64,000 bases of DNA from NCBI GenBank assembly GCA_029573495.1, contig JAKQEI010000195.1:1-64000 (forward strand), in the 5' to 3' direction. Below, piece after piece: positions 36,309-39,340 of this stretch. Position numbers and translations under genes: made by a program. The notes beneath the pieces were generated by a model. The model was not told the DNA's origin. It made no database searches and saw only the letters and a list, made by a program, of their open reading frames with translations. How positions within the stretch are numbered: the first letter of the stretch is position 1; every line of letters starts with the position of its first letter. The DNA is from Bacteroidota bacterium. GTDB lineage: Bacteria > Bacteroidota > Bacteroidia > Flavobacteriales_F > PHOS-HE28.

Positions 36309-37097
36309 TCAGTATCGCAGCGTGAAATGCTCCTTCGCCTGCTCGGCGCGCAGGAACACGAGGCCGAGGTCGTACAGGTCCACGGTGACCGTTACGAGCG
36401 GATGGTCCTTGATCGCCGCCCAAGCCTGTTCCATGCCGCGGCTCCAGTGGATGTCGTCGAAAACGAACACCGTGCCGTTATGTGCGAAGGGTAGGATGGT
36501 CTCGAAGTACGCAAGCGTCGGTTCCTGGGCATGATGCCCATCGATGAAGGCGAGGTCCACACGACCCATGTGCTTCAGCACTTCCGGCAGTTTACTCTTG
36601 AAGCTGCCTAGAACGGCATGGATATTCTCCGATCCGAGGTGATCGAAATGGTGCTGGGCGATGCGCTGGGTCTGGGGACAGCCCTCAATGGTATGGACCG
36701 TTCCATCCTCCGCAGCCGTGGCGAGGTAAAGCGTCGTGATCCCGAAGGAGGTGCCGAGTTCCAGTACACGGGTGGCCTGGAAATAACGCGCCGTACGGTA
36801 CAACAGCCGGGCCTGTGCGGCCGGCTTCAGCGCTGTGCGGGCGATCCCTGATACCACCCGGATGGGCCGTTGCGAGACCCGGGAGCCTGCTCCCAGGTCG
36901 TTCACCGTGATGGTCTGATCGCTTTCCAGCAGGTCCTCGCGAAGCGCCTCGATCTCCTCGAACTGCGGCACGTCCACTCCATGTCGCAGCACGTGTGTGA
37001 TCAGGTCGTAGACGAAGGGGCTATGTACCCCATGACGCGTCCGCGCCTTCACCAGGTGTTCCAGGTAGCTTCCGATCCGTTTCAGGTGTTCGCCCAT
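36309..37097 (-). CDS. Class I SAM-dependent (O-)methyltransferase
   Basis: VLELGTSFGITTLYLA, HTIEGCPQT, LAFIDGHHAQEPTLAYFE, VFVFDDIHWSRGMEQAW. Confidence 0.85.
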   Translation of the reverse strand: MGEHLKRIGSYLEHLVKARTRHGVHSPFVYDLITHVLRHGVDVPQFEEIEALREDLLESDQTITVNDLGAGSRVSQRPIRVVSGIARTALKPAAQARLLYRTARYFQATRVLELGTSFGITTLYLATAAEDGTVHTIEGCPQTQRIAQHHFDHLGSENIHAVLGSFKSKLPEVLKHMGRVDLAFIDGHHAQEPTLAYFETILPFAHNGTVFVFDDIHWSRGMEQAWAAIKDHPLVTVTVDLYDLGLVFLRAEQAKEHFTLRY

Positions 37098-37189: not shown

Positions 37190-37672
37190 TCAGTGGCGCT
37201 GGTTGGCCAGGGCCTTTCGTGCTTCGCGGAAATACTTCAACGGCACCCAGAGCATGCCGAAGCACTCGCCATCCTCCTTGCCCAGGTGCTTGTGGTGCAC
37301 CTTATGCGCCTTGCGTATCCCAAGGAAGTAAGCGTTGTGCGTGTTGCGGAGCCACTTGATCCGCTGATGGATGAAGACCTCATGCACCAGGAAGTAAGCG
37401 ATGCCATAGACGAGGATGCCGAGCCCGATCCAGAACCAGGGCGTGTGGAACCCGAGCCAGCTTCCAATGGCGAACAAGGCCATGGAGGGCACGGCGAAGA
37501 TCAGGAAGAAGGTGTCATTCCGCTCAAGGAAGCCATAATGGTCCTTCTTGTGGTGGTCGGCGTGCAGGTGCCACAGGAAGCCATGCATCACGTACTTGTG
37601 CGTGGCCCAGGCCACACCTTCCATCAGGACGAAGGTGAGCGTGATGATGGCTAGTATGGTCCACGTGCCCAT
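37190..37672 (-). CDS. crtZ: Beta-carotene hydroxylase/fatty-acid hydroxylase-like
   Basis: THKYVMHGFLWHLHADHHKK...VHEVFIHQRIKWL...AHKVHHKHLGKEDGECFGMLWVPLKYF; CrtZ histidine boxes. Confidence 0.88.
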   Translation of the reverse strand: MGTWTILAIITLTFVLMEGVAWATHKYVMHGFLWHLHADHHKKDHYGFLERNDTFFLIFAVPSMALFAIGSWLGFHTPWFWIGLGILVYGIAYFLVHEVFIHQRIKWLRNTHNAYFLGIRKAHKVHHKHLGKEDGECFGMLWVPLKYFREARKALANQRH

Positions 37673-37673
37673 G

Positions 37674-38171
37674 TCAAGATCGAACGTCTGACCCGCCAGT
37701 TGGTTCGCTCTCCGGTAAGAGGATGGTCGCCAAGGTCAGCGCCCGATGATCGAAGATCCGGTCCAATTCGCGCCTTACCCAAAGCATATGTGCGAGTTCG
37801 CCCAACGGTCCTAAAGGTAGCTCGTACTCCACACGATCCCTCATGTGTACACCATTCGGGACCGCCTCGAACGCGTGCGTATGCCGCCACAGCCGATAAG
37901 GCCCTTGGAGCTGGGTGTCCACGAAGCGTACCGGGGCGCTCACCTCTTCGATGCGTGTCACCCAGCGGAGCGGTATCCGCAGCAACGGGCGTACCGTGTA
38001 CGTGATCAGCTGTCCATTGAAGGCCGGTCGGTCGTCGAACGGTTCACGGATGCTCAACCCAAGTCCCGGAGGTGTTATCAGGGCAAGGTTGCGAGGGGTG
38101 CTGAAGAAGTCCCACGCACGTTCCAACGTGATGGGCAGGGTCTGCGACCGTTCCAGCACGTGGCGGGCCAT
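37674..38171 (-). CDS. SRPBCC family protein
   Basis: MARHVLERSQTLPITLERAWDFFSTPRNLALITPPGLGLSI; one base separates its stop from the crtZ start. Confidence 0.85.
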   Translation of the reverse strand: MARHVLERSQTLPITLERAWDFFSTPRNLALITPPGLGLSIREPFDDRPAFNGQLITYTVRPLLRIPLRWVTRIEEVSAPVRFVDTQLQGPYRLWRHTHAFEAVPNGVHMRDRVEYELPLGPLGELAHMLWVRRELDRIFDHRALTLATILLPESEPTGGSDVRS

Positions 38172-38175
38172 GGTA

Positions 38176-38337
38176 TCAGCCGATGACCTCGAGCTTCGGA
38201 TAGCGCTGCTTCCAGGCGGCAAGCGCCTTCTGGGAGGAAACAGTGATGACCGTCCGCGAATCGAGACGGACCTTGATCTCCTTCACTCCCGCTTTGATCG
38301 GACGTTCCAGGATGAGCGCGGGTTTCTTGCGTGGCAT
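38176..38337 (-). CDS. Small 53-aa protein, tandem paralogue A (not in ORF track)
   Basis: Manual translation MPRKKPALILERPIKAGVKEIKVRLDSRTVITVSSQKALAAWKQRYPKLEVIG*; 38/53 identical to paralogue B. Confidence 0.75.
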   Translation of the reverse strand: MPRKKPALILERPIKAGVKEIKVRLDSRTVITVSSQKALAAWKQRYPKLEVIG

Positions 38338-38359
38338 GTTGCTTACGTTGCGTTGGTGA

Positions 38360-38521
38360 TCAACCGATCACCTCCAGTTTGGGGTAGCGCTGACGCCAGA
38401 ACTCCAACGCCTTCTTGCTGGCTACCGTTATGATCGTACGTGCGTCCAACCGGACCTTGATCGCTTTCAAGCCTTCTTTCACCGGTTGGCTCAGGATGAG
38501 CTGTTTCTTCTTGCGTGGCAT
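38360..38521 (-). CDS. Small 53-aa protein, tandem paralogue B (not in ORF track)
   Basis: Manual translation MPRKKKQLILSQPVKEGLKAIKVRLDARTIITVASKKALEFWRQRYPKLEVIG*. Confidence 0.75.
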   Translation of the reverse strand: MPRKKKQLILSQPVKEGLKAIKVRLDARTIITVASKKALEFWRQRYPKLEVIG

Positions 38522-38628
38522 CTTGTTGTTCTTGTTGGGTTACCAAGCGGACCTGGGAGTATCCCATTGACGGGTGCTGAACCGGTCCTGCTGCCCCAAG
38601 AACGTCCAAGCGGCTTGCATAGTTCGCA

Positions 38629-38651
38629 TTCCTACCGGTAATGGGTAGGAA
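38629..38651. repeat. Inverted repeat TTCCTACC-N7-GGTAGGAA upstream of the small-ORF pair
   Basis: Perfect 8-bp arms 38629-38636 and 38644-38651. Confidence 0.65.
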
Positions 38652-38883
38652 ATTGACATTGTTTAACGGGAGGCGGGGAATTGTCCTTTGCAAAACTTAA
38701 ATAGCTGTATACCAGACAAATACGAGTGTAGCTGCGGTTGGTTTCCGTTCGCTCCCAGCGCCTCCAAGGTAATGATTTTCAGCGCAGTTGAGCCCACTAG
38801 CAGGAGATCCTTGTGTCCATGGGAGGAAGAGCCTTGATCAGATCGACCTTGCCGCGGTTGAGGCAGGGCGCATTCAATTAACT

Positions 38884-39122
38884 GCACCTAGCCGCTCAAT
38901 GCGCAAGCGGGGCTTCTACTCATATACCTGATGTTCGCGGCGCGTGGCAGAGACCTTTTCAGCACGATCCTCCACGAACACGGTCCGCCCGTCCTTCGCC
39001 GGTCAGGTCCATGCCTTGTGCTCGCCGTGGTGATTACGCAGCCGCTCGGCCAAGGGTACTTCCGGGTGCCCTACATAATACATACCCAGGTCGGTGGTGC
39101 GTAGGATCGAACGAGTCCACAA
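38884..39122 (-). pseudogene. Degraded GIY-YIG nuclease family gene
   Basis: One reading frame gives LWTRSILRTTDLGMYYVGHPEVPLAERLRNHHGEHKAWT*PAKDGRTVFVEDRAEKVSATRREHQVYE*KPRLRIERLGAV; in-frame TGA (39005-39003) and TAG (38918-38916). Confidence 0.75.
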
Positions 39123-39149
39123 CAAAAAACCCCGACCATGGTCGGGGCT
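39122..39149 (-). terminator. Intrinsic terminator downstream of tRNA-Val
   Basis: Minus strand AAGCCCCGACCATGGTCGGGGTTTTTTGT: GC-rich stem followed by T-tract. Confidence 0.85.
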
Positions 39150-39151
39150 TG

Positions 39152-39226
39152 TGGGACCTACTGGATTCGAACCAGTGACCTCATGCGTGTGAAGCATGCG
39201 CTCTAAACCAGCTGAGCTAAGGTCCC
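39152..39226 (-). tRNA. tRNA-Val(CAC)
   Basis: GGGACCTTAGCTCAGCTGGTTTAGAGCGCATGCTTCACACGCATGAGGTCACTGGTTCGAATCCAGTAGGTCCC; cloverleaf folds by hand. Confidence 0.92.
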
Positions 39227-39266
39227 AATATGTCAAGTGCGGTCGTGCTCGACACTTCCGCGGTGT

Positions 39267-39340
39267 GGAGGCAGCCGGATTCGAACCAGCGACCCTCTGC
39301 TTGTAAGGCAGATGCTCTGAACCAGCTGAGCTATGCCTCC
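39267..39340 (-). tRNA. tRNA-Val(TAC)
   Basis: GGAGGCATAGCTCAGCTGGTTCAGAGCATCTGCCTTACAAGCAGAGGGTCGCTGGTTCGAATCCGGCTGCCTCC; anticodon loop CTTACAA. Confidence 0.92.

Follow-up and report, generated by a model that had tools for sequence, protein, structure and literature searches.

What are the two short open reading frames, A and B, that stand in tandem on the minus strand in front of an SRPBCC gene and a crtZ-like gene in this genome? The earlier note on this DNA had described them as paralogues of a family that it did not recognise, duplicated, then held by purifying selection, and probably sharing a transcript with SRPBCC and crtZ. These parts of its interpretation have stood in our analysis of the window (the whole stretch of 64,000 nucleotides); what it missed is that the pair lies in an eroded operon and has many paralogues, both at other places in the genome and in other Bacteroidia. 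New here are a wide, unnamed protein family, an eroded light-protection operon and the remnant of a photolyase gene. The features of the locus are collected in Table 1.

Table 1. Features around ORFs A and B, with coordinates in the window.
Feature	Coordinates	Strand	Remarks
Methyltransferase (Methyltransf_24) gene	36309..37097	(-)	after crtZ here and in several relatives; part of operon uncertain
crtZ-like (beta-carotene hydroxylase) gene	37190..37672	(-)	1 nt after SRPBCC
SRPBCC (Polyketide_cyc2-like) gene	37674..38171	(-)	4 nt after B; Pfam 20.3 bits, below curated cut-off of 27.4
Small basic protein gene B	38176..38337	(-)	53 aa, pI 10.8; tandem paralogue of A
Small basic protein gene A	38360..38521	(-)	53 aa, pI 10.8; first gene left in operon
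Decayed photolyase 3' end	38543..38692	(-)	clearest at 38600-38692; photolyase directly precedes A in relatives
Terminator-like hairpin	39127..39150	(-)	after tRNA-Val genes; consensus match only
Two tRNA-Val genes (CAC, TAC)	39151..39340	(-)	upstream; landmark common to relatives L044 and L098

Both ORFs are intact, with 53 codons each and the translations previously given for them. They align without gaps, 38 of 53 residues being identical (the local score of 199 compares with at most 51 in 2000 shuffles). An ORF listing includes them at a cut-off of 40 amino acids; the default cut-off is 60, which is probably why they were missing from the earlier ORF track. Among orthologues within the genus, mean pS and pN are 0.56 and 0.084 for A (pN/pS 0.15) and 0.45 and 0.060 for B (pN/pS 0.13); the ratio near 1 that had been named in advance as evidence against selection was not found. 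Within a single genome, A and B differ from each other with pS of 0.49 to 0.73 and pN of 0.20 to 0.25. The reading frame is maintained in more than 130 distinct family members. To judge from these sequence comparisons, A and B are genuine protein genes. Chance ORFs are plentiful in a GC-rich genome such as this one and A and B are short, but the idea that they are chance ORFs or a structured RNA has practically no standing: it is refuted by the substitution pattern, and the maintained frame, the invariance of T29, W42 and P47 and the limitation of Rfam matches in the stretch to tRNAs all speak against it. The intergenic gaps read from the sequence are those reported before, 22 nt between A and B, 4 nt between B and SRPBCC (whose start ATG is at 38171) and 1 nt between SRPBCC and crtZ. 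Together with a gene order conserved in the genus, this spacing supports the shared transcript as probable.

Homologues in related genomes, whose absence would have counted against the pair, are general: all 45 genomes of the order (one genus) carry between 1 and 5 copies. The genome studied here has five, A and B and one each on contigs C183, C289 and C277, and A and B match the family profile with E of about 1e-28 to 1e-29. In an even sample of the class Bacteroidia, searched with a balanced 12-row alignment, matches were found in 89 of 395 genomes and 35 of 196 genera; with the 16 genomes of the own genus subtracted, homologues are present in 73 of ~379 sampled genomes of other Bacteroidia. 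When a genus-dominated model was run on a sample of the phylum, only 2 of 396 genomes matched; set against 89 of 395 for the class, this low figure reflects sensitivity and sampling. Family members are defined by a length of 45-74 amino acids with the core [IFV]K[VL]x[LI]Dx[RK]T...W..[RK]YP, and by purifying selection on the frame; A and B have this length and core, and show such selection (pN/pS 0.13-0.15). Public libraries fail to recognise the family just as the earlier note did: Pfam, NCBIfam, PHROGs and PADLOC gave no credible match, only weak scattered ones or none, and no homologues were found in collections of phages, plasmids and viral contigs. These searches mark it as a chromosomal family, found mostly in Bacteroidia, that has no name in the libraries covered. 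Although neither Pfam nor NCBIfam contains it, roughly one in five of the sampled Bacteroidia and all genomes of the order carry it, frequently as several copies and frequently next to stress genes; gene tracks may have missed it because its proteins are so small.

One copy, 77% identical to A, lies on a contig labelled Patescibacteria (L055:4001-4374, from a genome of 0.5 Mb, G760). It sits between mnmA and alaS and adjoins a second small ORF (P0001), for which no clear homologue was found in the order. No other clear copy of the family was found in a phylum sample of 287 Patescibacteria genomes. The GC3 of the copy is 0.66, against 0.20-0.30 in the neighbouring genes, and the copy has the appearance of a recent acquisition from Bacteroidota.

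In the family tree, which is built on 53 columns and leaves many forks open, all 12 B copies fall in one clade (support 99/81) and on one side of a branch in 98% of bootstrap trees. The B clade is nested in the A+B group (support 91/76). B is best read, from this topology, as the product of one old tandem duplication within the light-protection operon, in agreement with the duplication and subsequent purifying selection proposed for the pair. A tandem pair of small genes, a few hundred bases apart, also occurs in another family of Bacteroidia (L158-L162), with a thioredoxin-like gene beside it in several genomes. One genome of the set (G016) has a fast-evolving B copy (L006:1322-1480, branch 0.61) and a further family match with an internal TGA (G016:C13:23354); copies may therefore decay in some genomes.

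The common gene order in the genus is crtI-crtB-idi-folE-photolyase-A-[B]-SRPBCC-crtZ, often with the methyltransferase gene next. The places of crtI, photolyase, the small genes, SRPBCC and crtZ in this order come from mapping across the loci, those of crtB, idi and folE from the ORFs in one relative, L096; photolyase and crtI (amine-oxidase family) in the relatives were confirmed by Pfam. The crtZ-like gene has no Pfam match at E<=1 and takes its name from the earlier reader and from its conserved position beside crtI and crtB in relatives. The linkage of crtI, crtB, photolyase and crtZ by which a light-protection operon is recognised is found in the relatives. In the window only crtZ, SRPBCC and the photolyase remnant are left beside A and B; the segment from crtI to photolyase has been lost. 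The remnant aligns with the photolyase 3' end of L011 with a score of 58, against a maximum of 32 in 200 shuffles. The sequence GGAATGCGAACTATGCA, upstream of gene A, was considered as a regulatory element and rejected, since it aligns as part of this remnant. L044 represents an intermediate stage: it has lost folE and photolyase and still carries the tRNA-Val genes, crtI, crtB and idi, together with intact A and B. L098 follows the same order, with folC, tRNA-Val genes, crtI, small gene and crtZ. In L044 and L047 the small gene is retained without a detectable SRPBCC gene. The decayed photolyase end stands beside intact A and B, which have therefore outlived the adjacent photolyase, and intact copies beside a dead gene suggest a role of the family's own. 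The hairpin of Table 1 would separate the tRNA-Val genes from the A/B operon. Upstream of the operon, at 39003-39110, lies an apparent decayed fragment of a GIY-YIG endonuclease (YVGHPEVPLAERLRNHHGEHKAWT), judged by eye; L044 seems to have a comparable decayed stretch after its tRNA genes.

Outside this operon the settings of the family vary. In L060 a clade F copy immediately precedes a fatty-acid desaturase gene, and sequence likeness points to the same arrangement in L090; the L004 copy has a cold-shock protein gene ~1.2 kb away. Clade C copies are found near GH3 and Sua5 genes (L059, L063) and clade D copies near yajQ and a FAD/NAD-binding oxidoreductase gene. In other families, copies lie 52-100 nt downstream of clpB (L153, L155, L156 and L183), and yaaA-adjacent copies are seen in five genera of one family. 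Further copies follow rplT or efp, or are flanked by a gapdh-like gene and a tRNA-tuf-nusG cluster. Many of these neighbours are stress or translation genes, as judged by eye and with no enrichment claimed. An upstream element, YGGCAYGnTnTT, precedes the ATG by 25-35 nt in 10 of the 12 genes of clade D and in 2 of the 6 of clade C. For clade D, TGGCACGnTnTT stands 25-29 nt ahead of the ATG in 10 of 12 genes, among them those of L071, L075 and L079, with 0.0013 occurrences expected per 60 nt. The element resembles a sigma-54 promoter, but this reading was rejected: the GG-GC spacing falls one base short of the canonical one, and no such element stands before gene A.

All 137 of 137 family members are basic (pI 8.98-11.80). 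A variable, basic N-terminal tail of ~20 residues is followed by a core of ~33 residues. Across 56 diverse members, T29, W42 and P47 never vary, D26 and Y46 hardly do, and positions 21, 23, 25, 31, 33, 39, 49, 51 and 52 are hydrophobic in 98-100%. Lysine or arginine is found in 96% of these members at position 22, 96% at 28, 91% at 45 and 70% at 34, those at 22, 28 and 45 alternating with wholly hydrophobic positions. AlphaFold2 places strands at 21-24 and 30-33, a helix at 36-45 and a short strand at 50-51, with moderate confidence (pLDDT 81, pTM only 0.48); a second model, from a more diverse alignment, was weaker (pLDDT 72.7). The predicted fold is a compact beta-beta-alpha core with a short last strand and a flexible basic tail, and the proteins are predicted to be soluble. 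Foldseek gave no match in the PDB at E<=0.001, the best E being 1.6. The sole lead from PDB sequences, and a borderline one, is a local match of 28 residues to the Venus flytrap solute-binding domain from the periplasmic part of BvgS (PDB 3mpk/4q0c; E 0.003-0.004). Kinship with BvgS was rejected: the match covers a short stretch of a large secreted domain in one protein only, no member of the small family has a Pfam solute-binding match, and the fold search gave no match either. The resemblance is probably convergence or coincidence.

What might such proteins do? We favour, as a tentative answer with somewhat less than an even chance, that A and B are small nucleic-acid-binding accessory proteins, with RNA or the ribosome a likelier target than DNA, embedded in separate stress operons. 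The conserved basic residues on a small core and the basic tail are compatible with binding, and are not proof of it. As the earlier note had supposed from the basic composition, for nucleic acid or the ribosome, charge and conserved basic positions suggest that core and tail together would bind nucleic acid. Each copy would be made together with the stress operon that hosts it, which in this genus is the light or photo-oxidative operon, and A and B might support the expression or protection of RNA or DNA while the operon is induced. The preference for RNA or the ribosome over DNA comes from the very small size of the proteins, their single predicted helix and the location of their genes inside operons and not in regulator positions, although this argument is weak. 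Against the proposal as a whole stand the absence of a relative of known function and of a fold match, and the variation of neighbours between taxa; searches of Pfam and NCBIfam by sequence and with Foldseek by fold found no match of the family to a known nucleic-acid-binding family. A basic composition is also common in small proteins. Small basic nucleic-acid-binding proteins of the cold-shock type have several paralogues per genome in different operons. The A/B family resembles them in size, basic charge and this distribution of paralogues, but has no cold-shock domain match and a different predicted fold, with one helix; the likeness may extend to the manner of working only. If RNA or the ribosome is bound, the expression of stress genes in Bacteroidota would become directly accessible through this family; according to one report (PMC6847099), Bacteroidota lack Shine-Dalgarno sequences. 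A bolder extension, for which we see only a slim chance, is that these are class-wide plug-in RNA- or ribosome-binding proteins, inserted into individual stress operons of Bacteroidia (light, heat, membrane fluidity, peroxide) and favouring translation, or protecting the mRNA, of that operon. Operon-specific factors of this kind for translation or mRNA protection would not have been described before.

The basic beta-beta-alpha core with its conserved lysines and arginines, and genes within or at the edge of operons, could be expected of small, dimeric DNA-binding transcription regulators, each controlling its host operon. This seems unlikely, since there is one predicted helix only and no match to helix-turn-helix or ribbon-helix-helix proteins, and the gene is usually internal to its operon and not at the head. 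It is likewise doubtful that the proteins serve as adaptors or small subunits, binding through the tail to a protein whose gene lies near (photolyase, SRPBCC, desaturase or ClpB): the spacing to photolyase, SRPBCC and clpB genes is tight and a small stable core with an invariant W and a YP could form an interface, but no single partner is conserved across the class, A and B have persisted where the photolyase next to them was lost, and two loci retain the small gene where SRPBCC is undetectable. A part of a toxin-antitoxin, defence or mobile element, or a phage remnant, is very improbable: tandem small genes, sporadic occurrence outside the order and one apparent transfer to a Patescibacterium would suit it, but PADLOC and the phage, plasmid and viral collections hold no match, all genomes of the order have the family at conserved places, and A and B are homologous to each other.

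For the operon of the preferred accessory-protein reading, the nearest known systems are the LitR/CarH light-response sets. In the available portion of a study of Pseudomonas (PMC9758184), LitR controls phrB and folE. Photolyase and folE are thus common to both, and the operon here has crt genes as well. The small A/B family was not found in that portion. Because of its gene set and of LitR-controlled phrB and folE in Pseudomonas, we infer that the operon may be light-induced. No regulator gene lies next to A and B in the window, and a light response is read here from the genes. Another contig of the same genome, C299 (L192:2694-8397), carries genes for a MerR-B12 (LitR/CarH-like) regulator and an ECF sigma factor with crtI, crtB, idi and photolyase; one in-frame TGA was reported in the photolyase match. 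The small-protein gene is absent beside this cluster, and its proteins are 53-60% identical to those of a relative. The C299 cluster may have replaced the lost half of the A/B operon.
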